Origin: Tetradesmus obliquus
Lineage: Eukaryota; Chlorophyta; Chlorophyceae; Sphaeropleales; Scenedesmaceae
DNA length: 64,000 nucleotides
Assembly (NCBI GenBank): GCA_030272155.1
Contig: CP126196.1
Coordinates: 1,364,001-1,428,000, forward strand
Direction of reading: 5' to 3'
Shown: positions 15,425 through 64,000 of the stretch, in pieces
How the letters are laid out: the number at the start of each line of letters is the position of its first letter
How positions within the stretch are numbered: position 1 is the first letter of the stretch
Made by a program: the position numbers and the translations under genes
The notes under the pieces: generated by a model
Seen by the model: the letters and a program-made list of their open reading frames with translations, nothing else
What the model was told of the DNA's origin: nothing
Databases searched by the model: none

Positions 15425-18400
15425 ATGGAGGCAATGCAACAGGCCAAGCAGGCTGCTGATCGAGCATTTAAACAGCAGCAGTACCAGCAAGCCATAAACA
15501 AATACTCAGAAGCGCTTAAAGCCTCCGAGGACAGCCTGATAGCGGACTTGCTGCACGTGCTTTACAGCAACAGGTACTGCAAGGGATAGGGGCTGTCCTG
15601 CCTGGCCTCGACCACAAAATTCGAGTTCGCAAGCAAGCCGCAACAGCTGTCAAACAAACGGTTTTGTTGTGTTTACAAGTCTAGTCGGAAATCCTTGAAA
15701 TATCGTCATGTCACCCGTGTTGCCAAGGTTGCTGCTACTGCTGCTGGTACTGCTGCTGCTGCTACTGCCACTGCTGCTGCCGCAACTGCTGCCTCTCCTC
15801 ATGAATGCAGAGCTGCCGCAAAGCTCGCTGTGCAGGACTTCCATGGAGCTCTTGCGGATGCACAGTCTGCAGTTGCTGTTGATGACAAGTGAGTGCTGCA
15901 GCTGGTGCAGCAGGCACAGCGGGTGACAGTGATGCCCACGCCTCTGTTGGCACGGCGCTGCTCAGGTCACTAGGCTATCAAGAGGTGCATCACCAGACAT
16001 ACAGAGCACAAGCAAGGAAGCAGCAGCAGCTCTGCTGCAGATGCATAACGCAAACTGCCACATGCGTCAGGCAGGATGCTGCACAGGATGTGTAGATGCC
16101 TTATTCCCCCCCACTGGAGGCTTAACTGCTGCACTGCGTGTCATGCTGCCCAGCAGTACAGATGGTGCACCCACAATCCACCCACACTGTGCATCTGCTG
16201 CTGCTGCTGCTGCTGTTGCAGGTGGGTGAAGGGCTGGTACCGCTCTGCGAAAGCGCTGCAGGGCCTGGGCAGGCTGGAGGCTGCAGCGCAGGCAGCAGGC
16301 AGGGCACTGCAGCTGGAGCCAGGCAACAGAGAGGTGCGGAGAGGCCTGTCACTATGTCGCTATGGGTCACATATTCTGAACTCATGATTTTGATTATGTA
16401 CTTGCCATGTGCTGTCCAGAGGCCCAAGCCTTTGGAAGTTTGGCCACCGCCGTGCCGTGTGTTGCTGGCCATGCTTTCCAGGTTGCTGCAGGACCCTGCT
16501 TGATTGTACTGCGGTTGTTGATGTTGCAGCCCATGGTTTGAATTTTTGGCAAGCACATTCTCACACACACGATGCTGCCCATGCTGCTTCACTGCTGCAG
16601 GTCAAGGCGCTGCTACAGGCATTGAAGCAGCAGCATGACAGCAACACAAGCAGCAATCCAGCCAGCCAGCCAGGTCAGCTTGCAGGACTCACCCAGCAGC
16701 AGCAGCAGCAGCAGCATCAGGCCGCTCCTGCTGCTCAATCATTGCGCTGGCAGCAGCTGAATGCGCTGCGTCAAACCCTAGACCTAGCGCTGCTGCCGCG
16801 CCAGCTGGTGGCTGGCTCGCGGTACCTGCCCTCGCCAGATGGCCTCAACAGCAACCTGATGCTGCTGCTGCACGGGCTAGGCGACAAACCAGCTGCATTC
16901 ACAGGTGTGCAAGCTGTGCCAGAAAGGGGCTTGCAGGAATGGGTTGAGGTGGCCACAGGTGCTGCGAGCATCTCGACATTGTAGTGGGGATCCTCAGATG
17001 CACAGCCTGAGACACAAAGTGGGCAGCTGCTTGCTGCGTTTGTGTCTGCTGTGCACCTCACCTGCTGTGCCGCCACGCACTTGCTAAGCTCGGTGCATAG
17101 GGTGAAGAGTCAGCATTAGGACCAGGGTGTTGCGTATGTTTAGTTGACAAGTCATGACCCCCTGCTGTGCCTCATGTGCTGCAGCGCTGGCGCAGCGCAT
17201 GCAGGCACCCAGGATGTGGGGCATAGGGTTGTAGGTTTTTTAGGGTTGTAGATCAGGGTTGAGCCTTAAACCCCTGCTGTGTCTCATGTGCTGCAGCGCT
17301 GGCGCAGCGCATGCAGCTGCCGCAGACGGCCTGCCTGGCGCTGTCTGGCCCCCTGGAGGTGCCGGAGACTCGCGGGGGCAGGGCGTGGTTTAGGGCTTTT
17401 GATGATGACTGGGAGCTCATACAGGTGTGTAGAGGCTTGCCTGAAGCCTCGTGTATTGCAGACACACATACGACTGAAAAGGGGTGTGTGTGTGTGTGTG
17501 TGTGTGTGGCTGCATAAGTGAGACTGTCAGGGGCGGTCATGGTTCAGCGCCTCTGAAGATGAGTGGAAGTGAATGTAGGTAACAGGGTTTGCTGTCAATA
17601 CTGCTCAACTGTGCAAGCATCACCACCTGTGGTTGCGCCATGCATCTGCATCAGCAATTAGCTTGCTGGCAGCAGCTGCGTCTCATCATACCATCGTATG
17701 TCACACGTGCATGCAGCCCCAACCAGCAGCACATACACGGCCGTCTGCATTGCCTCTCTGATCTGCTGATACTACCTGCGTCTCACAGTGCACCGTATGC
17801 CTGTCATCATACATTACTCGCCTGCCTGCAACCTTCCCAGGCGCACTCACAGGCCTCTGCATCATGTCTGATGCTGTGCTGACACTAGCTGTCCCTCATC
17901 ACGTATTAACTGCCTCATCACTGTATGTATCGCTTGCCTGCCTGCAGCCCCAACCAGGCGAGAAACGCCGCCTGAACTCCCTAGCCAGCACGCTGGCGCT
18001 GCTGACGCAGCAGCTGCTGCCAGCTCTCTCAGCAGCTGGCGGCTGGCAGCCGGATCAGATTCAGCTGCTGGGGTTCAGCCAGGGCGGCAGTGTGGCTCTT
18101 GAGCTGGCACGGTGCTGCACAGGGAGCCAGCGGCTGGGCGGGTGAGTGTTTGCTTGTGCCGACTTTATGCATAGCAAACATGCTCTGATACACCCATCAG
18201 CGATCACAGACAGACTTCAAGAAATCTGTCTGTGATCGCTGATGGGTGTATCAGAGCATGTTGGTCGTGCTGTAATGAAACATTAGTAAGGCAGCCAACT
18301 ACAGTTGGGCATCTTGCCGTCAACGGATCGCGCAATGATGTGTTAGCTGCTGGGTTCAGCCAAGGGGGGCGTGTGGGTCTTGAGCTGGCACGGCACTGCA

Positions 18401-18723
18401 CAGGGAGCCAGCGGTTGGGCGGGTGAGTCAGCATCTTGGCGGCTACGTCAGTGGCTGTGAAACTGCCGAATGTGAACTTTGGCACATCCTCCCTGGCCCA
18501 TGCGTATGGCTGCTCGGAGCGCTCAACACGTGTAGCTGTTCAAAAGCCACCTGCAGCCATGTGCTGAGGTCTGCTTAAAAGGTGGCCGCTGCCTGCGCAA
18601 TGCTGCTGCATACTTTGCTGCTGCTGCAGAATGGTATGCAGCTGTGCTGCTGTGGCCGGCATGTGCCACTGGCAGCAGCCCTTGCAGTGGCATGTTGTCT
18701 GCTATGATAGGCTGCATCGCGCC

Positions 18724-18754
<31 letters not shown>

Positions 18755-19549
18755 TGCTGCCGCTGTGCTGCCTGCAGGGTGGTGGCTATCTCAGCTGCTT
18801 TGCTTGAGGAGCAGCTGGAGCAGCATGCGGCACCCAACGGCAGCAGCAACAGCAGTACGGCAACCAGCAACAGCAGCAGTAGTAGTCCTGTGGAGGCTGG
18901 CACAGACGCCTTGATCACGCATGGTGACAGGGATGAGGTTGTGCCGCGGTCTTTGGTAGAACGGTGAGCTGCGCACTTCCAGCGCAGCAGCACTGCCCTA
19001 GCTGCTGCTGTTTGCCTGTCACCCCTCCCTGCGGCAGCCTTGCTGTACTGCCATAGACAGACAAGCTCGCTCTGAAACCCAATATGCATGCACTTTGCAG
19101 CAGACTGACTACGGTGCCCTGTCAGTCAGCGCACTGCGCAGAACCTGATGCCACAGCAAGTCTTGTACCCCACAGACTGCCCGTCACCCATGCGCTTTTG
19201 ACGCTGCTCAAGACATACCTACCTTCTGTTATGCTCAAGCAAAGAATCCTCCACCTGCCATTGCACTGTTCTAGCCTGCCTGCCTGTATGCCTGCTAATG
19301 CCTACCATACACATGTCACTAAACACCCCTCGCAGGTCCGTAGCGGTGCTGCGCAAGGCCGGCTGCAATGTGTCGCTGCAGCCGCTGCCTGGCAAGGGCC
19401 ATAGCATGATCAGCGGGCCCGCTGAGATGCGCGCCTGCATGGCCTTCTGGGCTGGCCGGCTGAAGATGCGGCCGCCGCAGGCGGATGCGTCGTACATGGA
19501 GGTACCGCAGGAGGTTGCTGCTGCTGTGCTTGGCGACCTGAAAGTATAA
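15425..19549 (+). CDS. TPR domain fused to a phospholipase/carboxylesterase (acyl-protein-thioesterase-like)
   Basis: Eight exons (15425-15573, 15811-15888, 16222-16333, 16601-16904, 17297-17424, 17948-18141, 18778-18963, 19336-19549) give 454 residues with consistent phases. Residues 1-112 are a TPR block (FKQQQYQQAINKYSEAL, YSNRAAAKL, ALADAQSAVAVDD, GRLEAAAQAAGRALQLEPGN). A Gln-rich linker follows. An alpha/beta hydrolase runs from about 190 to 454: LMLLLHGLGDKPAAF (oxyanion region), LGFSQGGSVALELA with nucleophile Ser301, THGDRDEVVP with Asp374, and LPGKGHSM with His406. The family (Abhydrolase_2) cleaves carboxyl esters or thioesters, including palmitoyl-Cys. The TPR part may place the enzyme on a partner such as a chaperone C-terminus, which is an inference. 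Several exon edges are copied nearby (see repeats). Confidence 0.9.
17158..17205 (+). repeat. Copy of the 3' splice site and start of esterase exon 5
   Basis: This intron segment is nearly identical to 17272-17317, covering the CTCATGTGCTGCAG acceptor and the first exon bases. Downstream it diverges and no donor follows, so it is a decoy acceptor about 113 bases before the real one. Confidence 0.85.
18177..18262. repeat. Perfect 38-bp inverted repeat (hairpin) in an intron
   Basis: The left arm 18177-18214 is the exact reverse complement of the right arm 18225-18262, with a 10-base loop (CTTCAAGAAA) at 18215-18224. It lies in intron 6 of the TPR-esterase gene, between exon 6 and a duplicated piece of that exon. 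The transcript would fold into a long perfect stem, like a small-RNA precursor. It could equally be a fold-back left by template switching. Confidence 0.95.
18346..18427 (+). repeat. Second copy of the esterase nucleophile exon end
   Basis: The segment repeats the last part of exon 6 (about 18066-18147), again encoding GFSQGG and ending in the same GCGG|GTGAGT donor. Changes (RVGLELARH for SVALELARC) keep the frame open. An AG acceptor precedes it in TTAG. It could act as an alternative 3' part of the exon, but it lacks the first hundred bases of exon 6 and is more likely an intron relic. Confidence 0.85.
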
Positions 19550-19654
19550 GCCGGGCTGCATGGGCCATGCTCTGGGCTGTTACGCTGTTGAGCGTGATTG
19601 ACCCTGGACAAAGTGGTTCTATGGGGGAGTTCTCACAGCTGATATGCGGTACAC

Positions 19655-20300
19655 ACATTTCATGGCCTGCTGAGATGCGCGCCTGCATGGCCTTCTGGGC
19701 TGGCCGGCTGAAGCTGCGGCCGCCGCAGGCGGATGAATCATATGTGGAGGTACCGCAGGAGGCTGCTGCTGCTGTGCTTGGAGACCTGGCTATATGAGGG
19801 TGCAGAGCCTTCTGTGCTGTCTGGTTGACAGTGTGGCCTCTGCAGGTGGATGAGGCGTACGTCGAGGTACCGCAGGATGCTGCTGCTATGCTTGGCAGCA
19901 TGCAGGCGTTGACAGCGTGAGGCAGCATGGCCTTCTGGGCTGGCCGGCTGAAGATGCGGCCCCCGCAGGCGGATGCGTCGTACGTGGAGGTACCGCAGGA
20001 GGCTGCTGCTGCTGCTATGCTTGGCAGCATGCAGGCGTGAGGCTGCATGGCCTTCTGGGCTGGCAGGGTTGAGACTGAGGCCACTGCAGGCAGATGAGTC
20101 GTACGTGGATGTACCGCAGGAGGCTGCTGCTGCTGTGCTTGGCGACCTGTCTGCACGAGGTGCTTGGGCGGCATGCGGGCGTGAGGCTTCTGCGCTGGCA
20201 GGCTTAAGTTGAGGCCCCCGCAGGCGGATGAGTCGTTTGTGGAGGTACCGCAGGAGGCTGCTGCTGCTGTGCTTGGCGATCTGGCAATGTGAGGCTGCAT
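19655..20300 (+). repeat. Five tandem copies of the esterase terminal exon end
   Basis: After the stop at 19549, the last 110-130 bases of the coding sequence recur at about 19661-19800, 19803-19920, 19921-20042, 20043-20160 and 20165-20300. The first copy encodes MRACMAFWAGRLKLRPP, QADESYVEVPQEAAAAV and its own stop. Others carry small indels and lose the frame. All retain the GAGGTACCGCAGGA block. They may be transcribed as 3' untranslated sequence. Confidence 0.9.
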
Positions 20301-20944
20301 GGCCTTGCTCTGGGCTGTTGGGCTGTTGAGCGCGGTTGCTTTGAGCAGAGTGGTTGTTTGAACAGAGTGGGGGTTTGAAGGGGAGGCGCTTGACAGGTGG
20401 TGCAGGACTGCTTGAAAATCAAGCCCTCTTTATATTTGCATGCACCAAAGTCCCCGTATCAGTACATGTCGTGTCATGCACGGTGGCACTCTAACACAGG
20501 GCCAGCGTCCTCGCCAGCCTTTGGGCTAGCCTGGGGCAGACAACTGTACTGCCGACTTCTGGCAGCCAGCATTGCTGGGCAATTGGCGCCAACTGCTCAC
20601 GTTGAAGCCTATCCACAGCTAAACCTGCCAACTCATCCCATCACCTCGGGCGTGGAAACACAAGGGCCAGTGGAAGGCCAGGTAGAGCATCGCCTGCAGG
20701 CTGTACATCGCCTGCTGTACACATACCGTGATAAGGTGTGACACAACGCACAGGACGACTTGTAGAGCCATGTTTACCTTACGAATCAGTGCTGGCATCT
20801 TCAATGCGGCGTTGTGCGTCGTGCTCATTTGGTATCACTACAACTAGGCAGTGACTGGCTGCAACTCGAGATCTGTTCAAAGAGCGACGATGCGCTGCTA
20901 ACACAACACGGCAGTACTACTATCAAATACTTTAGGATTGCATA
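20301..20944. other. Spacer between the TPR-esterase and COQ2
   Basis: It follows the copied terminal exons and precedes COQ2. It contains the COQ2 promoter region and short open frames without recognisable domains. Confidence 0.4.
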
Positions 20945-21468: not shown

Positions 21469-23537
21469 CAGCAGCAGGGGCATGTACACCAGCAGCAGCA
21501 GCAGCAGCAGCAGCACGCCGGGCGGCAGCTGGGTGGAGCGTGCGCTGCCCACCCCCGTGGTGCCGTATGCGCAGCTAATGCGGCTGGACAAGCCCATCGG
21601 CTCCTGGCTGCTGGCCTGGCCCGGACTCTGGTGAGTTGCACTTATGCTTACTGTCTTTAGGGCCTCTGGCTCCTGGCCTTCTGCAGTTGAGGTTGTGTGT
21701 GACTTGCAGGAACAACAGCACTTGACATACCCTCTTCTGTGCGTTTATAACTTGAAACCGGTTTGTGTGCAGGTCCATTGCGCTAGCTGCAGGGCCAGGG
21801 CAGCTGCCCGACCTGTGGCTCACTGCGCTGTTTGGAGTGGGTGCCGTGGTGAGTGCAACGCTTGAGGGCAGGCGGGGTGACAGGCTGAGGCAGCCGGCAG
21901 ACTGTGTGCCTCATTGAGCAGCAGCAGCAGCAGCAGCAACAGCAACAGCAGCACTGGCAGCACATCTGCTGTGTACCTGAATGTCATCTGGAGGCTGCAG
22001 GAAAATGATGACAGCCATCGTGCAGCTGCAGCTAAAGGTTGTGCAGCTGAGGTGTGGTAAGCGCTGCTCAGCTGCAGCACACATCACTGCGGCATGCTGC
22101 GTGTTGGCACCGTCGCGAACGCTGGGGATAATAGGTTGACTCAAGTCCTCCTGGTCTTGCTGCCGCGCACTTCTACTGCACTTTGCAGCTGATGCGTGGT
22201 GCCGGCTGCACCATTAATGACCTCTGGGACAGGGACATAGACAAGCAAGTGGCACGCACCCGCAGCAGGCCCCTGGCTGCCGGTGCTGTCACCCCCACTG
22301 CTGCGCTGGTGTTCTTAGCCGCACAGCTGAGCCTCAGTTTGAGCATCCTGCTGCAGCTAAACACATACACACAGGTAAGCAGCTAAGCACATGTGGGTTG
22401 GCCGGCCTGCCTAGGGGTGTACTTACAGCAGCAGACGCGCGTGCGCAGGATTCCTGGGCAGCTGAGCCTCAGCCTTGGCCATGCTGCTGCAGCTCAACAC
22501 ATACACACAGGTGAATACCTGCACACACTTGTGGGGTAGGCTGGTATGGCTAGGGGTGTGGTTGCAGCAGCAACCCCACTGCTGCAGTGGCCTTCCTGGC
22601 TGCACAGCTGAGCCTCAGCCTTGGCCATGCTGCTGCAGCTCAACACATACACACAGGTGAGTCTTCTGGGAGTGGGCGGCATTATCCTTGGCTGGAGGTT
22701 CAGGTGTGTAAGAGGTGTGCGGCGTGAAGCACCAGGGAGACGGACTGCGAGCATGTTGTGTCTTTGGGTGTAGGGGAGTCAGCGGGTATCTGTAACAGTA
22801 TACACCGCTGCACAACCAGGGGAAGGTCAGGATGGTGATGTCCCGCTCCGCTGATAAGCGTTCCTCCAGCTGCTGCTGCCAAGTTTTGCACACTGCAACT
22901 GCACGCAGGAGCTGGACGTGGCCTCGCTTGCTCTTCATTAAGCCACTGATCCGGCTGCTCATGGCAGCGCCCCTGCTGACTCATCCTGCTCATGTATGGC
23001 ATCTGCTAATGCATGCAGGTTCTGGGCGTGGCCTCACTGCTGCTGGTGGGCACCTACCCCTTGATGAAGCGCGTCACCTGGTGGCCGCAAGCTTTCCTAG
23101 GCCTTGCCATGAACTATGGGGCCTTGATGGGCTACTCCGCTGCTGCTGGGGCCTGCGACTGGGGCATCGTGCTGCCGCTGTACGCTGCCGGTGTGAACTG
23201 GACGCTTGTGTATGATACAATCTACGCCCACCAGGATAAAGCGGATGATAAACTGGTCGGTGTGAAGTCTACTGCATTACTGTTTGGGGATGATACAAAG
23301 AAGTGGGCCGCAGGGTTTGGGGCTCTGCAGGTGCTTGGTTTAGGGTTTGCCGGGGCCGCGGCCGGCTGTGGTGTGCCGTATTATGCGGCGGTGGCGGCTG
23401 CCAGTGCGCATCAGGCGTGGCAGGTGGGCAGCGTGGATTTGGACAATGGCCCGGATTGTATGGCTAAGTTTGTGTCGAACAAGTGGTATGGCGCGGTGCT
23501 GTATGCCGGCATTGTGGCTGACAGGCTGCTGGCTTGA
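20945..23537 (+). CDS. COQ2: 4-hydroxybenzoate polyprenyltransferase (ubiquinone biosynthesis)
   Basis: COQ2 attaches the polyprenyl tail to 4-hydroxybenzoate in the mitochondrial inner membrane, the first committed membrane step of ubiquinone synthesis. Four exons (20945-21630, 21773-21848, 22189-22374, 23019-23537) give 488 residues. The first 200 residues are Ser/Gln-rich and probably include the mitochondrial targeting sequence; a CAG run encodes poly-Ser. The enzyme core starts at [20 protein letters not shown]. The first Asp-rich motif NDLWDRDID is at about 264-272 with the preceding [31 protein letters not shown] and the second Asp-rich motif [13 protein letters not shown] (Asp at about 382) follow, then [11 protein letters not shown]. 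All UbiA signature residues look intact. The chosen ATG could have an upstream alternative because TTGCAG lies just inside the exon. Confidence 0.95.
22451..22660 (+). repeat. Two copies of the COQ2 exon 3 end with donor site
   Basis: The end of exon 3 (about 22318-22378), encoding [18 protein letters not shown] plus its GT donor, recurs at 22451-22516 and 22574-22660 in the following intron. The copies resemble each other more than they do the original ([10 protein letters not shown]), which suggests successive duplication. Each keeps ACACAG|GTGA, so each offers a decoy 5' splice site. Confidence 0.9.
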
Positions 23538-23974: not shown

Positions 23975-26900
23975 TCACGCTGCGCCGTCCTTCTTGGCCC
24001 TGAACACGTCCCGCAGCTCTTTGAAGCGCTTGAAGCACGCCGCCTTGCCCTTACCAGGCACCACAGTGGCAATGCGCTCCCAGCGGTCAGGCAACTCCTT
24101 ACCAAACTGCTTCAGCGCCTGCACCAGAGCAAGTTCCTGCTCCTCATTCCACTCGCCAGAGTCTGTTGCTACTACCTTCTTAGCAGCAGCAGGCTTGGCA
24201 GCAGCAGCAGCAGCGGCGGCTGGCTGATCTGCGGCAGCAGCAGCTGGTTTGGCAGCGGCAGCAGCAGCAGCAGCTGGCTTGGGTGCGGCTGCAGCAGCGG
24301 CAGCTGGCTTGGGTGCGGCTGCAGCAGCTGCAGCAGGCTTTGCAGTGCCGTTCGGCACCGCTGCCGCTGCGGCGCCGCCGCCGCTGCTGCTTTTACTGCT
24401 GCTGGTGTCTGCTGCTGCTGCTGCTGGTGGTGCGCCGGTGGCGCTGCTTCGTCTGCTGTTGTCTGCGCTGCTGCTAGGGGTGCTGGCGCCGCCGCTGCTG
24501 TTGGTGGCGCCTGGCACGAGCACTGTGGCTGCCTCCCGGGTGATGTTGACCTGCGGATGGTACACAGGCGCAGCGCAGCAGCTAGCAGTGAGTGTCCCGA
24601 GCCGGAGCAGCAGCTGCTGTGCAACACAGTGCAGCTGCGCCGCAAACGGTTGCTGTGCCAACCAGCAGCTTGATGCCATCAGCCTATCTTCTCATGTAAA
24701 CAGCCTTGCAGATAGACTCTGCCAAGGGCCATCATCCTAACACCCTACTCACGTTCACGTCAGTGAAGGCCGCCACGCGCAGGTCTGCTTCTGAGGTCAC
24801 GTCTGCGCGCTTCTTGGCTGCGCCCTTCCAGTCCTCCTGCTTGGCCATGCGTGTGCTGCTGGCGCCCTGGTGCTCCTTCACCATGAGCAGCACCTCGTCT
24901 AGCGTCCTCGTGCGCACGTATGCAGCCACCTGCATGCAGCAACAAGTATATATTACTGCCTATGATACAATAGCTTAGGTGATCTGTTTGAGCCATGCTC
25001 CTCGACCATGAGCAGCATCTCGTCAAGTGTCCGGGTGCGCACATAAGCAGCCACCTGCATGCAGCAACAGTTGGGTTTGTTGATAGTGCCTAGCGTGCAG
25101 TGTGCTGCTGGCCCCTTGGTGCTCCTTGACCATGAGCAGCACCTCATTCAGTTCCAGGTGCGCACGTACGCGGCCACCTGCATGCAGCAACAGTGATTTG
25201 CCACTGCCAGTTAGGCACTGGCTTTTGTGTTGTGTTTGCAAAATGCTCCTTGACCATGAGCAGCACCTCATCTAGCGTCCGGGTGCACACGTATGCAGCC
25301 ACCTGCACAGCAACCAAGATATGTTACTGCCTATGATGCAATGGCTTAGATGATCTGTTCGAGCCATGCTCCTTCACCATGCGCAGCACCTCATCTAGTG
25401 CGCGGGTGCGCACGTACGCAGCCACCTGCAAGCAGCAGAAGCAAAGGGAATGGCAACCCATTTTTGTATTCATTAAACGCAATGCAGCGTGCGGCTGTGC
25501 ACATACACAGCCAGCTACATGCGCGGAAACAGCGGTTGGCTGATGCGTATTATGTTATGCGTCTCTGTGCAAGGTGCTGCACATCACACTCAACATCGCC
25601 CGAGTGCAGACCCAGACACCGTGCGCTGCTGCCTTAGCCATACACGCAGGCAACACCCCCAACATGTACCACACCTGCTCCCAGCGCCGCGGCGTGCCCA
25701 TGGGGAACTTCTCAAACCCCCAAGATTATGGTCATGGAGCTCAAGCCATCATCCACCTATGTAACATGCCATTAACCACGCCATAAACCACTCAAATCCA
25801 ATGCCGCACCTGCTCCCAGCGGCGCGGCGTTCCCATGGGGAACTTCTTCACCGCCTTGTCCAGCATGCGCAGCTCGTCATCGCCCCACTCACGCATCTCC
25901 TGCATCTTCTTGGCGTGGTCGCGCTTGGCCAGGTTCTGCATGTGACAGGTGGCGGCACCAGCAGCAGCAGCAGAAGGTTTTGAACAGCAAGCTCGTGCAC
26001 GCATCTCTTGCATCTTCTTGGCTTGGTCGCGCTTGGCCAGGTTCTGCATGTGACAGCAGCAGCAGCAGCAGCAGGTGATGTTTGTCTGGTATGTTCAATC
26101 AAGCATCTCCTGCATCTTCTTGGCGTGGTCGCGCTTGGCCAGGTTCTGGGGGAGGGGGCAGCAGCAGGCAGTTGGATGAGCTTTCATCAAGACAACGCAG
26201 TTGGCAAGCTTCGGCACAGCTACACAGTGCTGTTGTTGCTGAAACAGTTTGCATGCAAAGGCTGCCGTTCGGCTGACGGTTGTCCAGCATCAATGTGAAA
26301 CAACTGAAAGGCAACCCACACACACACCTTCAGTGCCGCCTCAGCCTCCCGCTTCTTCTCCTCTTTGAGGCGCTCGGCGTCCTGCTCACGCTCATCCAGC
26401 GAGTCACACCGCATGAAAAGTTGTAGGTAACACAAGATTCCAAACAGACCTCAACAGCAAAGCCTCACCTTGAGAGCTGCTTCAGCCTCCCGCTTCTTTT
26501 CCTCTTTCTGCCGGTCTGCCTGCTCCTCACGCTCATCCAGCGCAGCCACTGCGCCCGCCAGCACCGCAGCACGCGCCGCGGGCTCTGTTGCTGATGTTGC
26601 TGCCTCGCCCAGCTGCTGCATCTGCGAGAGGTCCAGCGACTGGCACAGCCGCTCCGTGTCGTCTGCAGTACGCCAGCAAAAGCAAAGCAAGTCAGAGCAC
26701 AGCAGTCAGTGGGAGAAGAAAGGGAGAAATACTTTGAAGGGATGAGCACATGCACATGCACACAGCACACAGCCATGTGCCGTCTGCAGGGCACATACCC
26801 AAGGCAATGCGTTGACGCCTGTTCTTGCTTCTTGGTCAACTACTACTGAACCGTCACGCCTGCACTGAACAGCGACCAGCTGCATCCATATATACCGCAG

Positions 26901-27561
26901 ACACTGCCCATACTCTGCACACCACAACACTCACAACACAAACCAGCACACCCCCGCACCTATGCTGAGCAGCCGCTGCTGCCCCTCGCCTCCGTCCGCC
27001 AGCTTGCGCAGGCGCTGCCGCTCCTTCTTCATGGCCTGCTTCTCAGCGTCGCGTATCTTCTTGGCCTCCGCTGCTGCTGCCTTGGCTGCCTCCTCCTCGG
27101 AACGCCTGCAGCATTGAACAACGCAGCAGCGACAGTGACAGCACGACACACACTCAGCACAGCAAACTGTCACGTGTCTTGGCCTCTGCTGCTGCTGCCT
27201 TGGCTGCCTCCTCCTCGGCACGCCTGTGTGTGGGATTGGACGAAGCAGCAGCAGCAGCAGCAGCAGCAGCAGTGACAGCACACAGATGCATAGCACAGCA
27301 AACTTGCGTGTACGGTGTTCCCAACACATTCATATTAGGCAGGTTTCAATGGATAGCCACCAATTGATGCATGTACCTATACGCCCAACTGCACATTGAC
27401 TGTACAGCTGTAAAGCAGCAACAGGCTGGGCTGCTTGGCTGCTTGACTTCATAACTTCATGGTCCCCTCACTTGCGCGCCTCCTCTTCCTCTTTCTGCCG
27501 CTGCGCGGCCTGCTCCTGCGCCCGCTTTGCCTCAGCCTTCTCATTTTTCTTGCGCTCACTT

Positions 27562-27612
<51 letters not shown>

Positions 27613-28143
27613 TGAACACGGGCAGGCACTGCAACAGCCAAAGCCAGGGAGCTGATGATCATGCAGCTAGCCCAGATGCCCGCACCAGATATAGCCTGCC
27701 ATCTTATGGCTGCACTACCAACAGACAGCATGCGCCAGCGTTTGACAGATAAGCTCCCCTCGGTACACACGCGCCGCAGCATGATGTGCGATCGCTGCAT
27801 CCATGCGTTGAACAGCATGATATAGTCACACCCCCGAGCTCCTGCACAATCTGCACAACTGCATCAAATGCTCACCGCTCTGCTGCCTGCTCCGCCTTGC
27901 GCGCAGTGACGCGCTGGCTTGCCTAGTATGCTGCGTCCACAACAATACGCATACCTATTCGAACAGTTTCACAAAAACCAGCTCGTGAAGACCAAACAAC
28001 AACTCACCGCTCTGCTGCCTGCTCCGCCTTGCGCGCAGTCACGCGCGGGTCCACCCTGTAGGCCGCGTCCACAAACTCGCGCAGCCGCCTGCCCTCCTCC
28101 TTCTTGCCCTTCTCCCGCAGCTTGGAGTTGATGCTGCGATGTG

Positions 28144-28181
<38 letters not shown>

Positions 28182-30176
28182 GAGAGTCAGTGGAGCGGCA
28201 GCGGCAGCAGAAGGCAGACGGCAAAGGTACAGCACACTCTCAATCTGTCATTCACACAATGCCCCAGCAAGCACGCCACCATCACCATGCAGCACTTGCA
28301 GCAGCACCCGTCAGCAGCTGGCCTCACCGCTCGATCCAGTGCTTGTGCTCGCGGCTCTCTGCGCCCTCCACATCCTCCTCATCCCACGCACTCAACAACC
28401 TTTCACCCCAAGACATACACCCTTCACCCAAGCACAGTTGCTATCACAGCACCCTGCAGCTCTTTGGGGCTCTGGACTCTGCGCTCTGCCTAAGCAGGCA
28501 CACACACACGATCCGTTCCATACAACACAGCCCTAAACACATCACTATCAGGAGAGTGCAACCACAAACAGCATGCGTCAGCAGCAGCCTCACCGCTCGA
28601 TCCAGCGCTTGTGCTCCCTGCTCTCCGCGCCCTCCACGTCCTCTTCATCCGGGTGCGGGAACTCGCGCCAGCTCTTGAAGCCGTACCAGAAGTCGTAAAA
28701 GGCCGACACCTCATCCCAGGGGCTGCCCTCATCGCCCACATCGGGCACCTTGGGGTCCACGGACCAGCGCGCGTTGCGCCGGAACGCCGGCGCAAACACC
28801 TGCGCAAAGACAAGGCATGTCATGAGGTGTGCTGCGAGTGTGCAGGGACTTGTAGTCCGGCGGCAAGTCACCGACAGGGTAGCGGTGCATTTCATAATCA
28901 CACAAGCTTGTGCGCAGGCGAGTGCCTGGGCTTGCGTTGGGCATGCAGTGCTAGCCAAGCCCAGCCGCCTAGCACCATGGCACACTTTAAAGTCGACTGC
29001 TGGCGTGCAGTCCAGCGGCAGGCGGGCGTTGGCATGGACATAGCACAACATATATATGGAGAGAAGCAACAACAAAAGTAACATGCAGCCGCACCTTGAA
29101 GAAGTCTGCGGGGGCGCAGTCCAGCGGCAGGCTGTCTTCCTCATTAACAAAGCACAAACAAAACAACAAAGTAACAAAAAAAGTAACATGCAGCCGCACC
29201 TTGAAGAAGTCTGCGGGGGCGCAGTCCAGCGGCAGGCTGTCGTCGAACTCGTCTGTGCTGTCGTACTCGCGGCGCTTGGCGGGGTCGCTCAGCGTGTCAT
29301 ATGCTGCCTGGATCTGCTTGAAGTGCTCCTCAGCAGCAGACTGCGGCGGCAGCAGCAGCAGCAGCAGCAGGTCCATGTACAGTGCAGATTTACATCAGTG
29401 TTTGCAGCACACCAACTGTTGCGCCGCCTTGGCCTTCTTGCAGTGCTCCTACGCAGCAGCCTGCAGCAGCACGTCAACATCAATTCTAGTAGTACTGTGA
29501 TATCACGCAGCACCCCGCAGCTGCCGCCCACCTTAGCGTCCTCGCAGTCTACGCCCACTAGATGGGTCAAACGTCACATCCCAAAAGTCAAACATAACAT
29601 GCTGCACCATTGCTCACAGCACCCCGCACGCTGCACCCACCTTGGCGTCCTCGCAGTCCACTCCCAACAACTGGGTCAACCGTCATATCTCAAAAATAAT
29701 TAAAAAACATAACATGCTGCACCATTGCTCACAGCAACCAGCACGCTGCACGCACCTTGGCGTCCTCGCAGTCCACGCCCACCAGCTTCTTGTCAGGGTG
29801 GTGCTCCAGGCACGCCTTGCGGTACGCTGCAGCGGCAGCAGCAGCAGCAGGCACGACGTCACAGGATTGCTACGACAACACCGCTTTTCCTGCCAGAATC
29901 CTGCAGATGAGCTACTAGCCACTGCTGCACAGCTGTGTGTCTGCACGCCGTGGTGACAGGGTGATAAGGCAGCGCCTTGCTGCACGGCTTATTGGAGCTG
30001 TCCCCGCTCAGCAAACAAAGCAACCAGGCTGTGAGCCCAGCCGCACTGCTGTGATCGCAGTAGTAGCCCACACTGAGCTATTGTGAGCGCAGGCATCAGG
30101 CAGCTGCTTGCACGGCTCCTGTCCTCTCCGCAACTGCCAGTCATACGGCTCTTGCAGTGCTGCTGAATCTGCTGGG

Positions 30177-30223
<47 letters not shown>

Positions 30224-43214: not shown

Positions 43215-44792
43215 TTAAACCTTCTGCAGGGAGCCCAGGATGTTTGAGCCGACAAACGCAGCCACTGCAGCAGCACCCAGGCCGGCAGCGCCCACCGCCT
43301 GGGCAGCCACCAGTGCTGGGGTGTCGTCAGGCACAGCAAACACCAGCGCAGCGGCACCAGCAGCAGCCACCAGGCCCAGGGTGCTCAGCAGGCCGGGGGT
43401 ACCCCTGTTGCAGCAGCAGCAGAATAATAATAATATTAAGCATAGGTTTCAGCGACATGTGCAGCGGGAACGGAGCATTGTGGTGCAGGCAGATGCAGCG
43501 TGCTTACGCTTTCCTTGCATCTGGCTGCATGCCAATCAACTGGCCGCAAGTTGATCAACCAATGACAGGCCGCACTTGCGACAGTCGAATTGATGGTGCG
43601 GGGACGCTGGCCCCATAGAGTGTTGCTATGGCTGGTTTGGTCACAAATTCGATTGTAGCCGTGCATCGCTGACATGGTGCGGCTGGTTTGTGGCAGGCAA
43701 GCTCATTTCCTGTCAGCCGCGCCTGCTTGCTGAGACGCCCCTGCTTGCAGGATGCACAGCTTCCAACCCCAGCTCACTTGTCTGCCACAAAAGCATCACA
43801 CACTCACTTGTCAGCCACCAGGGTGAGGATGCCTGCCTTCTCCGCCTTTTGCTTGTTGCTATACATTACCGCCTTGCTTGTTACTACATTTGCCGTTTGT
43901 GATCAGATCATCATGCACTCACTTGTCCGCCACCAGGGTGAGGATGCCTGCCTTCTCCGCCTTGCTGAGCAGGCCGCTCTTCTCGATCTGGCTTAGCGTC
44001 AGCCCGCTGGACTCGAGCTTGGACAGCAGCCCGAGCTCCTCAACCTTGGACAGCAGGCCCAGCTCCTCAATCCTGCGGTTGCAAGAAAAAGTGAGCAAGC
44101 TTTGACAAGCGTGTTTCAGGCGGTGTTTCAGCTGCATGCAGATTAATTGTGATGGGGTGAGGATGGGAGCCCTAGCTGCTGTTGGTTCTAGGAGCACCAT
44201 GGTATATGCTTGCAAACGCTGCTGGCGGCCACCTGCATGCCGCTGCTGCATTGCATGCGCAGTGTGAGGAGCATGTCTAGCTGCGCTGATCGTACCAGCG
44301 GAGAATCAGTGTCACCTGGCCAGCACGGTGAGGCCAGTGGCTGAGTTCTTGGTGCTCTGCTTGGCAGCAGTGGAGGCCCTGGCCACAACGGACACGCTGG
44401 CCCGCCTGGCAGCCCTTGCCGGGGCGACAGCACGCTTCTGCGATACATAACAACGAGAATTGAAGTAGGTGCGTGAAATTGTCGTGCGCTCTGCTGACGG
44501 CACGCAACATGGCTGGCCAGAAATGCACCACCAGCTGCAGGCCCTGCTCCGTGTAACTTGCACCTTGCAGCTGCATGCACGGCTATCTGGATGCGTGAAT
44601 ACAACCAATTTCAGCAGCAAAAAAGGTTATTCTGCAGCTGTATATCCACAAATGCGATTCGCGGCATCGGCAGCTCCACTTGCTCCGACCTGACTGCATG
44701 CATGCTTGCGATCTGCTTATGCTACCACATCAATTTAGCATACAAGATTGCCTGAGGAGCTCACAACCGCTGACCTGCATTGCCAGAGCCAT
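43215..44792 (-). CDS. DUF1118/RIQ-type thylakoid membrane protein
   Basis: Four exons (44775-44792, 44316-44437, 43923-44072, 43215-43404) join in phase to 159 residues. The first exon encodes only MALAMQ; with the second (KRAVAPARAARRASVSVVAR) it makes a chloroplast transit peptide. The third encodes a repeated amphipathic pattern: IEELGLLSKVEELGLLSKLE, SGLTLSQIEKSGLLSKAEKA, GILTLVADK. The last encodes two hydrophobic segments (LLSTLGLVAAAGAAALVFAV and LVAAQAVGAAGLGAAAVAAF) and ends SNILGSLQKV. The architecture fits the DUF1118 family, which includes plant RIQ1/RIQ2, grana proteins affecting LHCII organisation and non-photochemical quenching. I assign the family from memory of these repeats. 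It is encoded near unrelated genes, with no operon-like context. Confidence 0.85.
43796..43851 (-). repeat. Copy of the RIQ-type exon 3 end
   Basis: The segment matches 43916-43971, covering CACTCAC|TTGTC at the donor and the codons for KAEKAGILTLVADK. It lies in the next intron, about 125 bases past the real donor. Confidence 0.9.
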
Positions 44793-58559: not shown

Positions 58560-58601
<42 letters not shown>

Positions 58602-58840: not shown

Positions 58841-58872
<32 letters not shown>

Positions 58873-61167
58873 TTGTGCTGCAGAGGAAACATTCATGCAG
58901 CATGTCACGCGTGTGTACAAGGTGGGGCGGCAGCACAGCCAGACCAGCACTTGCTGCTCTCCCTGGTTCTCCCGCATTTCACCGTAACTACCTTGTACAA
59001 TGTGCTGAGGAATTGGAGTTGCTGTGTCGCTCTGCATCGTGCCCGGCTGTTGCATTCTGCTGGGTTGCCAGCATGCTGATTCTTTGTTAACTGGGCGGGC
59101 TGTGCGCTGATGTGCAATTCAGGCCAACACAGCCGTCATGTGCGTGTACTGTGTTTTTCTCCTGTCATCTTGCATGTGCCTCATCAAACTGAGTCAACAA
59201 GCACGTGTGAAACTTGTACACTAAGCTCCCAGTAAACCATGTCACCTGCTAGACCTGTTTTTCATATCAAAGTACACATTTCTCCATTCCAGGTCAACAA
59301 GCGTGTGTGCGACTTCTACACCAAGCTCACTGTAAACCATGTCACCTGCTAGACCTGTTGTTTCTTTTACTGTACACATTTTACATGTCAGGTCAACAAG
59401 CGCGTGTGGGACTTCTACACCAAGCTCACTGTGCAGCAGGCGGTGCGCGTGTCGGGCTCTGCTGGAGGTGCTGCGGCGGCGCAGCAGCAGCAGGACCAGG
59501 CCAGCGGTGGCTGGATGGACCCAACAACTTTCAGCTGAGGGGGCCGAGGATGTTGAATATGCCTCGCGGCCGGATGGAACTCAAACCAGCTGGAGGTGAG
59601 GCAGCTGCTGCTGCTGCAGATAGAATATTTACGTGCTTAGTCGCATCATGTGGGCACGCGGTGCCAGCCCCCATCATCAAGCCAAGGCAACACACGCTGC
59701 AGGTTACTCCTGCTATTGCAGCAGATTTCCACTCTCTTGTTCTCTGCAGCTTTATGCCTCAACTGCCTTGCTTAAGCTCCAAATCCATGAATTGCAGGTT
59801 CCGCAGCAGATGGGAGCAGGTGGAGTCTTCTTTGAGAGCCAAGTAGTTCACCTCCGCCATTCCCATCCTTTCACCAGGCTCACTGCAGTTTGGTGCCTCA
59901 ACTGCCTTGCTCACGTGTTCAAACTGCACTGCAGGTTCCGCAGCACATGGGAGGATGTGCCGGCTGATGTGCTGCCCTCCCTATCAACCATCTCCCGCCC
60001 CTTCCCAGCAGCAGCAAGCACCACAGGCCCACCCTCCCTCACCCGCAGCTACAGAGCCCTAGCCACAGCAAGCAGGCCACTGGCAGCAGCAGCAGCAGCA
60101 GCAGCAGCACGCAGCACAGCCGGCAGCGCAGCCAGCGGCGACGCAGGCCACGGCAGCAGCAGGGCAGGGAGCCGGCCGCTGCATGCTGTGTCACTGCCTG
60201 TGAGTGCGGCAGTGCATGGCAGCAGCAGCAGCAGCTGGAGGCTAGGCCGGCCGCCGCTAGCGGCAGCAGGTGCAGGTGCAGCAGCAAGGCCTAGCAATGA
60301 TGTTGCACACGGAGAGAGTGCAAGAGAGCCAAGTTTGGAGCGGCCAAGCTCTATGGCAGCAGCAGCGGCTGCTGACTGGGCATCCCGGCATGACACTGCT
60401 GCTGCTACTGCTGCTGGCAGCACTGCTGCTGCAACACATGGGTCAACCAGTGTGCCGTCGATAGGTCAAGCAGGCAGTTGCACAGCCGCTTCCATAGGCC
60501 AGCCTTTTGTAGCAGCCTGGCAGCAGCAGCAGCAGCAGCAGCAGCTGGAGAAGAGCAGTGCAGCAAGCAGTGCCGGCCGCCGTGGCGGCAGCAGCAGCAG
60601 CACGGCTGGCAGCGAGGCAGCGGGTGCGGGCCAGATGCTGCTGCAGCTGCGGCTGCGGCCGAGTATCTTCCTGCTGCCTGTGCTGCCACCTGAGCATCAA
60701 CTGGCGTGGCTGTGGTCGCTGCTGATGCTGTTCATGGACATGGTGTACGTGGCGTTCATCATGCCCACCAACATGGTGGGTGGCATTTGAAGCTTTTAGC
60801 GCAGCAGTGAGTGCAGCTGCTGCAGTTGTAGTTGCTGCAGCGGTTCATGGACATGGTGTATGTGGCCTTCATCATGCCCACCAACATGGTGAGCCAAAAA
60901 TAACATCCACAGTTGTTGCCGTTATTGCTGTTGTTGTTTTTGTCGCGCTTGTTGTGGTTGTTGCAGGTGATGTAGTCGTTTCAGCTGTTCATGACATGGT
61001 GTATGTGGCATTCATTGCGCCCACTGACACGGTGCGTGCCTTTGCAGCACTTATGCTGCTGCTCCAGCTGCATTTGGGCATTAGGCCACACACTCCGGTG
61101 CTTTGCCAAATTGCTGACAAATCCGTAGGGTCAGCCGGTTGTTGACATGCCCCGCTGTGCTGCTGCT

Positions 61168-61209
<42 letters not shown>

Positions 61210-62260
61210 GCTGCTGCTGGCTGCAGGCATTTTGCCCTGTCGTGTTTGGGCAGCTCAACTGGTGCGGGGCGGTGGACTTGGTAGCAGGTGCGGCTGATGG
61301 CAGCAATGCACACACCCTGTGGCTGCTGAGCACCTTGTCATCCCGGCCATGCATGTGTGTACGGTGCTGCATGAATCTGCATTGCTGTAGATGTGGTTAT
61401 CAGCATCACAAAATCCTCGGATTACAGCTTTGCAGCTGCTCACAGGATCACTCTGCTACCGTCTCTCGTCTGACACTGCGGCACTGACCGTCACTCTTGC
61501 TGCTGCTGCTGTTACTGCTGCTGTTGCTGCTACCGTCAGGCTTGATCTACATGGCAAACCTCTTGATGTCGTTTCAGGTGAGCAGCAGCAGCATTGGCCT
61601 AGATGAGCAGCTGCAGCAGCTGCAGGCTCAGAATTTGCAGCGATCATTGCTGCTGCTCTCAAGCGCACAAACCACCTGCCATAGCTGATTACATACCCTA
61701 ATCGCCTTCTGCCGCACACACCCTCTCACACAGCACATCGTTCCTCACGTCTATTTTGTCGCCTCATGCCTGCATGCAGGTTTGGTTCATCCTGGAGCAC
61801 GACTACAAGAGGCGGCTGCTGCTGGACGCATGCGGCTTGTCTCGTGTCCCCTTGCATCCTGTAGCACCCCCACCTGCCACCGCACTGCTGTGCATTCTCG
61901 ACGCCTGCATGCAGATTGGGTTCATCCTGGAGCACGACTACAAGAAGCGGCTGCTGCTTGATGGGCTGCACGTGGCACGCTTCTACGCGCTGAGGGGCTC
62001 CTTTCTAACGGACGTGCTGGCGGTGCTGCCTGTGGTGTATCAGGTGGGGGCACCACGCCTGTATGTTGGGAGCTATCACTGCTGGTGGTGCAGCAGCTGC
62101 GGGAAGCACCACGCCTGTGCACTGCACAACAATGCTGCCGGTGTTGTCGCAGGTAGGTGGGGAGCACTGGGCGCTGTCATTGCACCCGACATTGCTGCTG
62201 TGCTGCCGCCGGCCAAAGTTACGCTGACTGGTGCTCTGTTGAAACAGAACTGTTGCTTGC

Positions 62261-62330
<70 letters not shown>

Positions 62331-64000
62331 AGATCGTGATGGTCAGCGGGCGCATCGCCAACTACTGGGCCAACCGCTGCCTGACCTTCACCATGCTGCT
62401 GCGGCTGCTGCGGCTGGCTGCGCTGATGAAGGTGCTCTTTGTGGACAGCCTCATCACCAGCGGCAGCAGCGGGCTCTCAAGGTGGGCGCGCTGAGAGCGT
62501 CGACATTTCTTTGTTGGTTGGGCGGGCCCTGGCTCACTCTGGCTGTTTTGCATGCCAGTGAGTCAACAGCCTCATCACCAGCGGCAGCAGCGGGCTCTCT
62601 CGGTGGGCGAGGGTGCATACAATGGCTCCAATCGTTGCTGTGTTTCGCTTGTGGCAGAGGTGTACTCTGGCTTGATCCTGGCGGTGAGTGGACAGCCTTA
62701 TCACCAGCGGCAGCAGCGGGCTCTCAAGGTGGGCGAGGGTGTGTTTCCGATTTGATCCACCTCATGGGATGGGCTCTGCCGGAAACGTTAATAGCGGCAG
62801 CAGCGTGTTACCACGTTTAGCCAGTTCGGCCGCGCATCCTAAGGATGTGAAAGGCTGGGGCATGGCATGTTTTGCGTGAGTTTGCCTGCTCTGGCGCGCC
62901 ACGTCAGCTTCATGAAGGTCCTCTTCATACCAACACTGGTGTCCTCTTGCTCATCCTGGCGGTGAGTGGACAGCCTCATCACCAGCAGCAGCAGCGGGCT
63001 CTCAAGGTGGGCGAGGGTGCATTATGCTGCAACAGCTGCTGTGAAAGACAATTTTGTACAGCTCCTTGACTCCCAAGAGCTCGCTGGAATCATTCATGCT
63101 GGCAACCTGCTGCTTCCTTGCAGGTATGTGTCAGTGCTGGGCCAGTATGCGCTCATCGCGCTGTACGCTGCGGCTGTGCTTGTGCACAACCTGGCCTGCC
63201 TGGCGTGGCTGGTTGCCCTGATGGAGGGCCCAGAGACCAGCTGGTCAGCCCATGTGGAGTGGGCCAGCCAGGGGCCCGGCCAACACATACATGTTAAATG
63301 GGCTTGCCATAACACTGCTGCTTGTGCTTACATATGTGTGATCCCCTGTGCAGGTACGTGTCAGTGCTGGGGCAGTACGCGCTCATTGCACTGTACGCTG
63401 CCGCTGTCCTTGTGCACAACCTGGCCTGCCTGGCCTGGCTAGTAGCACTAATGGAGGGCCCTGAGACCAGCTGGGCAGCCCATGTGGAGTGGGCCAGCCA
63501 GGGGCCCGGCAGCCTGCCGCACTGCCAGCCTGCTGAGCAGTACCTGGCGGGGCTGTACTGGGTGTTCACAACAGTCACAACAACAGGATACGGTGCGCGG
63601 GGAAATCCAAAAGCCCGGCCGTGTAGGGTTGGGCGTGCAGTGTATGTAATTTGTGTTCAGTTTGGAGGCAGTGTACTTGGCTGGGCTGTACTGGGCGTTT
63701 ACGACTGTGACAACGACAGGATATGGTGCGTTGGGTACAATGCTGAAGCAGCCATGAAGGGTGGGACACATGTGTGCATGTGATTTGCATGGACGCAGCG
63801 TGCCTGGCGGCGCTGTACCGGGTGTTCACAACGGTCACAACAACGGGATACGGTGGGCAGGGGCAGGTGGATGAGTCACTTGCACTAGCTGGTGTGTGAT
63901 GTAGTGCCTGTGGCAGGCACTGTGTAGGTTGATAACAGCACGTGAAAGGTGCGTTGTTTGGGATTAAGTTGCGTGAAAGCAGCGTACCTGGTGGGGCTGT
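58313..64000 (+). CDS. Voltage-gated/CNBD-type potassium channel, 5' part
   Basis: Phase-consistent exons: 58313-58550, 58884-58921, 59395 to about 59590 (end unresolved), 59935-60775, 61227-61287, 61540-61577, 61915-62043, 62333-62481, 63354-63592. The N-terminal 350-400 residues are Ser/Ala/Gln-rich. S1 is WLWSLLMLFMDMVYVAFIMP. The S1-S2 loop and S2 are FGQLNWCGAVDLVAG, GLIYMANLLMSFQ. Then come IGFILEHDYKKRLLLDGLHV and GSFLTDVLAVLPVVYQ (S3). S4 is MLLRLLRLAALMKVL, with few basic residues. S5 is YALIALYAAAVLVHNLACLA, and the pore is GLYWVFTTVTTTGYG. The GYG filter indicates K+ selectivity, and the DYKKRLLLDG and FLTDVL blocks resemble KCNH/CNG-family channels. S6 and any cyclic-nucleotide-binding domain lie beyond the window. 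Frames disagree around 59500-59600, so exon 3 may contain an unseen junction or indel. Confidence 0.82.
59193..59822 (+). repeat. Exon-edge copies in the channel N-terminal region
   Basis: The start of exon 3 (GTCAACAAGCGCGTGTGGGA at 59395) is preceded by copies at about 59193-59262 and 59290-59363. These share CACCTGCTAGACCTGTT in their flanks with a period near 100 bases. The acceptor and start of exon 4 (GCAGGTTCCGCAGCA) also have an earlier copy at 59797-59822. Confidence 0.85.
60838..61032 (+). repeat. Two copies of the channel S1 exon end
   Basis: The end of exon 4 (FMDMVYVAFIMPTNM|GT) recurs at about 60838-60893 and, more changed, at 60988-61032 (MVYVAFIAPTDT|GT). Each keeps the GT donor. 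Confidence 0.9.
61774..61837 (+). repeat. Copy of the channel exon 7 start
   Basis: It matches 61905-61970 across the CATGCAG acceptor and the codons for FILEHDYKKRLLLD, about 135 bases upstream of the real acceptor. Confidence 0.9.
62261..62332. repeat. (CTG)n tract of about 24 units running into a splice acceptor
   Basis: A pure CTG run of about 70 bases ends in CTGCAG, the 3' splice site of channel exon 8. It is the clearest case of a CTG run serving as the end of an intron. Confidence 0.95.
62561..63016 (+). repeat. Three copies of the channel S4 exon end
   Basis: The end of exon 8 (DSLITSGSSGLSR|GT) recurs at about 62561-62612, 62686-62740 and 62963-63016. The last two share the preceding CTTGATCCTGGCGGTGAGTG-like block. 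Confidence 0.9.
63118..63280 (+). repeat. Near-complete copy of the S5 part of the pore exon
   Basis: About 150 bases match exon 9 from its acceptor through YVSVLGQYALIALYAAAVLV to EWASQGPG with only a few changes. It then diverges before the pore helix and has no donor in place. It could be a decoy or alternative acceptor 230 bases upstream. Confidence 0.9.
63668..64000 (+). repeat. Three copies of the pore/selectivity-filter exon end
   Basis: After the real exon 9 end at 63592, the stretch encoding LYWVFTTVTTTGYG plus its GT donor recurs at about 63668-63727 (LYWAFTTVTTT) and 63796-63860 (LYRVFTTVTTTGYG). It begins again at about 63974, cut off by the window end. Confidence 0.9.

Follow-up and report, generated by a model that had tools for sequence, protein, structure and literature searches.

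Why should the ends of exons, together with their splice sites, be found again as diverged copies in the introns beside them, in one gene after another? The question is raised by a 64-kb stretch of the genome of Tetradesmus obliquus, a scenedesmacean green alga (C6:1364001-1428000, hereafter the window), for which a preliminary description had noted such copies in genes for a TPR-esterase, COQ2, ZRF1, a methyltransferase, a RIQ-type protein, a sulfatase and a channel. Our analysis of the window and of stretches sampled across the genome demonstrates that exon-edge copying is real and not peculiar to the window. The copies, which we call decoys where they carry a splice site, point to a mutation process that keeps producing decoy splice sites and lengthening introns.

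Results

Exon edges are copied locally and in direct orientation

The window and 24 ten-kb stretches together comprise 304 kb, or 0.3% of the 104.66-Mb genome (17 contigs), and all counts refer to this sample unless the window is named. Self-comparison finds 379 local repeat pairs in direct orientation against 4 inverted, with 22 of the 25 sequences affected. When each of 135 groups is represented by its best pair, a predicted splice junction falls within 94, and the rest comprise 28 exonic, 11 intronic and 2 intergenic groups; random relocation of the same groups expects 56.8 ± 5.2, 29, 38 and 11, respectively.

The window itself holds 27 independent local duplication groups, 24 of which start within 17158..64000. 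The best pair spans a predicted junction in 21 of these 24, the exceptions being at 24279 and 35212 (exonic) and at 51641 (intronic); one of the 21, the array at 19416-20330, consists of the end of a terminal coding exon and is not intronic, leaving 20 junction groups. The aligned copies comprise an exon edge, its splice site and some intron bases at ~73-98% identity, which bears out the earlier observation of diverged edge copies in the adjoining introns of many genes. A sum of array copies made by eye gives roughly 35 extra copies, the number first put forward; nearly all copies include a donor or acceptor, and whole-exon copies are as rare as had been stated (60709/60822 and 63119/63349). 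The list of affected genes also holds except for the sulfatase, which has no junction-containing copy at the threshold used and only an intronic pair, 51641/52051. Identities of the junction groups are graded from 67.6% to 98.4%, which argues for a process acting over a long time; of the ongoing duplication that had been suggested, only this much stands.

Copies are anchored at both kinds of exon edge

When only exons of 100 bp or longer are considered, a copy lies within 330 bp of 92 out of 483 junctions, about one in five. The corresponding counts are 18 of 807 for exon-interior tiles and 2 of 861 for control stretches shifted by 1.0-1.33 kb. An even spread along genes, which the preliminary description had named as the outcome that would overturn it, is thus not found in the sample, and the clustering near splice junctions extends to sampled stretches from 16 contigs. 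Copies concentrate at donors (54/249) and acceptors (38/234) alike; 81 of 100 copies at these exons are on the intron side, as is the decoy in 58 of 59 single-junction cases. A 50-bp sliding profile, which scores a second copy within 420 bp, peaks at 91/337 on the donor side (offset -40) and at ~77/333 on the acceptor side (offset -50), stands at 24/318 and 30/268 at offset 0, just inside the introns, and at 23/249 and 28/240, about a tenth, 100 bp inside the exons, and rises again near +60 to +100, where the decoys sit. No shuffled query (0/547) passes the looser threshold of the profile.

With tiles scored more strictly, copies are found for 137/629 edge tiles (a count that takes in some decoys called as exons) and for 18/807 tiles in exon interiors. 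The corresponding counts are 116/2235 in intron interiors, 15 of them without a link to an exon, and 23/581 at intron edges (first bases), only 1 of them without such a link; purely intronic copies are scarce. After matching for age, in which intronic pairs are allowed twice the divergence of exonic pairs, 24 of 36 pairs with an exonic divergence of up to 8% hold a junction, against 10.8 under a uniform null, and 5 are intronic, against 12.7.

Copy and source are commonly separated by unrelated sequence at a narrow spacing

Filtering the 135 groups for a copy of at most 110 bp, a gap of 25-140 bp and a spacing of at most 170 bp leaves 51 simple events, in which the copy measures 56.9 ± 14.4 bp, the spacer 63.4 ± 15.8 bp and the spacing 120.0 ± 14.3 bp. 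Among the unfiltered best pairs, spacing is 80-159 bp in 92 of the 135 groups and below 80 bp in 1; of the nearest copies to 92 junctions, 40 lie at 100-139 bp, 40 at 200-289 bp and 1 below 90 bp. Of 26 young single-junction cases, 19 have a copy with 35-60 exonic bases and 22 a copy with 5-30 intronic bases. The copies end sharply, with an identity just beyond them of 0.286 on the intron side (n = 35) and 0.264 on the exon side (n = 40). Copy length and spacer length are negatively correlated in the simple events (r = -0.55), which may reflect alignment truncation and is not used as evidence.

In the 93 groups with a spacing of at most 170 bp the ratio of alignment length to spacing lies near 0.45, 1.45 or 2.3-2.7, with more groups above 3 and few near 1 (0.2-0.7 in 50 groups and 0.7-1.2 in 9, larger values being arrays). 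Ratios near n + 0.45 indicate an edge-spacer-edge structure, with arrays that repeat spacer plus edge; in most of these groups the copies are not a head-to-tail duplication of the whole unit between them. Several homologous, diverged units in a row give the arrays a minisatellite-like character.

Where the copies are at least 88% identical, 28 of 41 spacers have no similarity to either flank, and the spacers within detected arrays remain alignable, a comparison biased by the dependence of array detection on alignability. For most simple events we therefore rejected whole-unit tandem duplication followed by fast intron decay. Some high spacer-similarity scores stem from masked simple repeats that match each other. 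No other match in the 304 kb was found for 38 of the 41 spacers, while three match elsewhere, one of them within its own array; three spacers searched against the whole genome have one place each and no second, in a search that can miss diverged matches. On these counts a mobile element was rejected as the source of the spacer. An inverted copy was rejected too, there being no excess of inverted similarity to the flanks or the copy. Patchwork templating from nearby sequence is not supported: in 42 events direct shared 8-mers are at most 1.7 standard deviations above control, and longer and inverted words are at control.

Two tests bear on whether the spacer is original intron, as in a paste model, or was co-inserted with the copy. 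Introns with one simple event are longer than copy-free introns (median 362 vs 291 bp, n = 23), and their length minus the copy fits that of clean introns (Kolmogorov-Smirnov p = 0.33), while removing the spacing as a whole gives a poorer fit (p = 0.08). The composition upstream of both the decoy (+0.52) and the real acceptor (+0.97) is acceptor-like in 20 simple acceptor events, compared with -0.88 further upstream of the decoy, and a CTG run extends the copy in several; the native-like context upstream of decoy acceptors favours co-insertion. In 19 acceptor cases within arrays neither context looks native (-0.32 and -0.67).

Decoys decay largely neutrally and mostly retain plausible splice sites

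Real edge and decoy differ in 49 simple events at 51, 42 and 132 of 800, 803 and 799 sites in codon positions 1, 2 and 3. The changed codons comprise 85 nonsynonymous and 111 synonymous ones, and gaps also accumulate; decoys decay largely neutrally, and the real exon changes mostly silently. Identity between real and decoy sequence is 0.88-0.92 in the exonic part and 0.76-0.85 in the intronic part from base 7 on. Splice dinucleotides are intact in 52 of 59 single-junction cases, the GT/AG bases being kept at 111 of 118 positions, hardly above the exonic part (~0.91). Most decoys keep plausible-looking splice sites. Scored against real sites, 26 of the 30 donor decoys and 28 of the 36 acceptor decoys surpass the 10th percentile, so that many are comparable to real sites; against random GT or AG from introns, only 20 of 30 and 11 of 36 surpass the 95th percentile.

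Decoy sequence in annotated ZRF1 proteins

The ZRF1 gene (window 23978-31593) offers a view of decoys in public protein models. The annotated ZRF1 proteins of this contig (OEZ86_003700, Tetradesmus obliquus) are represented here by P0002 and P0003, both of which terminate just past the NLAKRDHAKKMQE peptide followed by MLD, and P0001, from the other strain, repeats the NLAKRDHAKKMQE edge in frame. P0002 reads through a spacer to the decoy donor at ~29095, within 28983..29139, whereas P0003 does not; the peptide of the decoy at 26328..26407 is not repeated in P0001 or P0003. As annotated, then, these two proteins of the contig include decoy sequence. Since P0002 and P0003 both break off prematurely at a decoy copy, ZRF1 may be split or truncated in the public annotation; annotators should be aware that, on this contig, decoys seem to have shortened or lengthened the annotated ZRF1 proteins.

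Other loci in the window

The copies and related features are collected in Table 1. The spacer of the event at 17159..17204 has one genomic place only. The exon copied at 60709/60822 is single in P0121 and the channel exon copied at 63119/63349 is single in P0122, each a relative's protein derived from transcripts; protein searches with the channel and the esterase gave relatives, and no T. obliquus isoforms, among the matches listed.

Table 1. Exon-edge copies and related features of the window, by position.
Position	Strand	Gene	Feature	Details
17159..17204	+	thiolase/TPR/esterase	decoy acceptor (26 intronic + 20 exonic bases), copy of edge 17271-17316	97.8%; 66-bp spacer
18345..18428	+	esterase	decoy donor, copy of exon end 18063-18147	90.7%
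19416..20330	+		array downstream of gene, units from terminal coding exon end including stop codon; no splice junction involved	self-comparison
22290..22661	+	UbiA (COQ2-like)	exon-end/donor array	period ~135-146; UbiA domain
24851..25437	-	ZRF1	array of acceptor and exon-start copies upstream of exon 24753-24929	period ~124
25669..25712	-	ZRF1	decoy donor, copy of exon end 25804-25847	93.2%; 91-bp spacer
25998..26050	-	ZRF1	decoy acceptor, copy of exon start 25890-25942	96.2%
26096..26184	-	ZRF1	further copy of exon start (NLAKRDHAKKMQE)	80% to 25886-25980; predicted exon 26098-26145
26328..26407	-	ZRF1	decoy donor, copy of exon end 26469-26549	81.5%
27871..27942	-	ZRF1	decoy donor, copy of exon end 28003-28074	87.7%
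28302..28384	-	ZRF1	decoy donor, copy of exon end 28569-28650	88.0%
28983..29139	-	ZRF1	decoy donor copies of exon ending DSLPLDCAPADFFK	self-comparison, alignments, annotated proteins
29508..29672	-	ZRF1	decoy donor copies below exon 29756-29826	84.3%; period 109
38149..38211	-	methyltransferase region	decoy donor, copy of exon end 38332-38394	98.4%; 120-bp spacer
43794..43848	-	DUF1118 (RIQ-type)	decoy donor, copy of exon end 43909-43963	94.5%; 60-bp spacer
59193..59391	+	channel	two decoy acceptors upstream of exon 59392-59467	85.9%; period 100
59741..59822	+	channel	decoy acceptor, copy of exon start 59880-59959	79.5%
60709..60891	+		short exon, copied in full or for the most part (60709-60778 and 60822-60891)	87.1%
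61768..61826	+	channel	decoy acceptor, copy of exon start 61903-61961	93.2%; 76-bp spacer
62445..63043	+	channel	decoy donor copies, end of exon 62333-62481	period ~121
63119..63510	+	channel	whole-exon copy (63119-63280 and 63349-63510)	91.4%; in-exon differences synonymous by eye
63540..63862	+	channel	donor copies, end of exon 63354-63592	period 133

Several repeats of other kinds were seen. The intron just after the decoyed esterase donor contains an 86-bp near-perfect palindrome (18177-18262, 95%). The sulfatase intron pair (51641-51721 and 52051-52131; 81 bp, 98.8% identical) also has a 60-bp match of 98-100% identity, in opposite orientation, on another contig (L014 1001-1060), and thus looks like a dispersed repeat and not an exon-edge copy. 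Two tandem blocks at 2709-4650 and 6581-8464, 70-78% alike, lie in a cysteine-rich predicted gene. Outside the window, a 2.7-kb repeat on two contigs (L017 932-3661 and L027 5340-8058; 96% alike, with what look like inverted ends of 52 bp) and a 1.2-kb direct pair around ~250 bp (L013 1-1203 and 1457-2650; 98.8% alike) are probably transposable elements.

Sequence sample and gene models

The stretches outside the window were laid out as 25 x 10 kb at fixed positions on 16 contigs; one was all N and was dropped, leaving 240 kb. Simple repeats were masked for the self-comparison, pairs within 1.5 kb were taken as local, and alignments shorter than 30 bp were dropped before grouping. Exon models were predicted ab initio by a hidden Markov gene finder, for which this sequence in masked form was the sole training material. 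It gave 445 exons (median internal exon 138 bp, median intron 295 bp) and learned CAG/GTGAG as the donor signal and CTGCAG/G as the acceptor signal. Copy-free predicted introns have a length peak at ~180-380 bp, with a median of 291 bp and a middle half of 227-373 bp. In 178 clean introns, (CTG)n words are enriched 6-7x from 55 to 14 bases before acceptors relative to mid-intron, as if they were polypyrimidine tracts. Pfam agrees with the assignment of the window genes to thiolase/esterase, UbiA, ZUO1/DnaJ/Myb, methyltransferase, DUF1118, sulfatase and ion channel. With the decoys omitted, a ZRF1 protein assembled by hand matches P0003 at 100% identity over 80% of its length and P0001, from the second strain, at 97% over its full length.

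Discussion

A model for exon-edge copying

We propose that a recurrent mutation process at the DNA level copies exon ends directly into adjoining introns, that arrays are amplified from these copies, and that the process favours exon edges beyond what survivorship alone would give; we rate the chances of this reading as about even. According to the model, the adjoining intron would receive a direct copy of ~40-60 bp of exon end, including the splice site and some bases of the intron, as a rule at a distance of ~120 bp from the source and separated from it by ~65 bp of unrelated sequence. Once two copies exist, slippage or unequal exchange may amplify the unit of copy and spacer into an array, and the copies would persist as splicing normally removes them, events inside coding sequence being purged. 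The spacer would be either original intron, as in the paste model, or would have arrived with the copy in an insertion with target-like duplication. The weakest step is that the process itself favours edges; the most plausible cause would be a switch of template or an end-joining repair event at the boundary between exon and intron, where there are changes in base composition, chromatin or RNA-DNA hybrids. A stronger version, in which an edge-targeted mechanism with a built-in spacing of ~120 bp copies the last ~45 exon bases and the splice sites into introns, is a main source of intron growth, and steadily makes decoys of which some are recruited into transcripts, is conceivable, and we would sooner doubt than assert it.

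Part of the enrichment must be non-mechanistic: survivorship would also place copies at exon edges, because selection removes exon-internal insertions and intron-only copies should diverge about twice as fast. As a full account, ordinary tandem duplication within genes, striking ~100-150 bp segments at random, with exon-internal copies purged, intron-only copies fading at twice the rate and junction-straddling copies staying visible, is a serious but unlikely candidate. It sits well with the almost exclusively direct orientation, with a divergence of decoys from the real exon that is about half that of the intronic parts, and with the nine plain full-unit cases, but it leaves the 28 spacers unlike either flank between near-identical copies without a source, and fast intron decay, with the spacers of detected arrays still alignable, does not account for them. 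The scarcity of purely intronic copies, the unrelated spacers between near-identical copies and the narrow spacing, with almost none below 80 bp, lead us to prefer an edge-favouring mutation process over survivorship alone.

Recombination between diverged haplotypes or cryptic species, which would join alleles with similar exons and different introns ~120 bp out of register, is distinctly improbable: a synonymous divergence of ~5-10% should leave introns alignable, yet similarity stops abruptly at the end of the copy, residual flank similarity being found in only 5/33 cases on the intron side and 2/35 on the exon side, and the 19 array cases have no native acceptor context. It would, on the other hand, account for the excess of third-position differences, the synonymous differences of the whole-exon copy at 63119/63349, the acceptor-like contexts at both sites of the 20 simple events and the three spacers with no second place in this assembly, and a second strain, with a ZRF1 protein 97% identical to our query, does exist. 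The third-position excess could mean that copies differed from the outset; a model with initial synonymous divergence fits no better when the slope is free (p = 0.26) and better at slopes of 1.9 (p = 0.001) and 2.2 (p = 0.02), and an allelic origin was not adopted from this codon-position intercept because the result hinges on the assumed slope. Maintenance of decoys by selection, as functional splicing elements or alternative exons, is very improbable in the face of their accumulated amino-acid changes and gaps, a GT/AG hardly more conserved than the exonic part, and the modest number that outscore random intronic sites, even with most of them above the 10th percentile of real sites, some used in annotated protein models, and exon-derived parts that diverge less between decoys than spacers do (0.124 vs 0.199). 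An assembly artefact, through haplotype contigs joined with their overlap unmerged or a polishing error, might be hinted at by a copy length near common k-mer sizes and a spacing near short-read lengths; it is the least probable of the explanations, given identities graded to ~70%, gaps and amino-acid changes in decoys, arrays with diverged units, and the fact that P0001, whose annotation lies on another T. obliquus contig (6,180,925 bp), repeats the NLAKRDHAKKMQE edge peptide that is copied here at 25998-26184. The survivorship, allelic and artefact readings are thus weakened.

Several observations nevertheless weigh against an edge-favouring copying process. The gene models on which the junctions depend are ab initio, nearest copies at 200-289 bp are as numerous as those at 100-139 bp (40 and 40 of 92), and 19 of 100 copies sit on the exon side of exons of at least 100 bp. 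The other 13 of the 41 spacers resemble a flank somewhat, partly through simple repeats, and paste and co-insertion are each favoured by one test (intron length and acceptor context). The youngest class (exonic divergence up to 4%, intron-only 8%; n = 14), too small a sample alone, contains 8 junction, 1 exon-plus-noncoding, 3 intronic and 2 intergenic pairs, with 4.5 junction and 4.9 intronic pairs under the uniform null. Third-position divergence is 2.8x that of positions 1-2, more than the factor of about two predicted for a decoy that drifts neutrally next to a constrained exon, and differences between decoys are also rich in third positions (83/68/172 in 24 arrays), as they would be if decoys were snapshots of the coding edge from different times.

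Recognisable copy groups overlap 165 of 405 predicted introns and contain 19% of intronic bases, figures somewhat distorted by decoys predicted as exons. If an edge-favouring process is indeed at work, one recurrent, junction-focused mutation process would generate much of the intron length and many of the alternative splice sites of this lineage, and strains and mutation lines would allow one to follow how cryptic splice sites, mini-exons and long introns arise.

Relation to known systems

End-joining repair of staggered breaks in plants leaves filler DNA and tandem duplications. The topology, a direct duplication flanking filler DNA, is identical to that described here; the filler in our case differs in bearing no clear sign of templating from nearby sequence. 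We know of no splice-junction focus for plant filler DNA. Internal gene duplication across the exon-intron boundary was reportedly treated by Gao and Lynch in 2009.

A literature search, from which subscription papers were mostly outside, found no description of exon-edge copying in Tetradesmus; in the passages that bear on the matter, work on the Raphidocelis genome (PMC5966456) and on splicing variants in Scenedesmus acutus (PMC12899622) concerns related but different phenomena. Introner elements of Micromonas, as presented in passages of PMC3488318, are likewise many intron-tied insertions in a green alga, but they form a repeated sequence family, whereas nearly all spacers here lack another match in the sample. 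Intron gain by AGGT duplication (Hellsten 2011, as presented in passages of PMC4974935) shares tandem copies that contain splice sites; in that model a duplicated exonic AGGT supplies both ends of a new intron, while the copies here lie mostly within existing introns. One decoy read by eye, 43794-43848, has no AG before its GT.

The closest single case is the duplication across an intron-exon boundary in potato RdRp, as told in passages of PMC4974935, and the statement in the preliminary description that no named process known to it does this so often was too strong, internal gene duplication across that boundary being named there. Both are local, direct duplications within a gene that take in a splice site with portions of the exon and the intron, and can alter gene structure; the predominance of direct over inverted pairs found here agrees with this. 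Differences lie in the ~65 bp of unrelated sequence between copies, the ~120 bp spacing, neither of which appears in the PMC4974935 passages on the potato case, and the involvement of about one in five sampled junctions. On our own reading internal gene duplication carries no preference for splice junctions, and the copies here do (92/483 vs 18/807). We classify exon-edge copying as a form of internal gene duplication that is unusual in its geometry and density.

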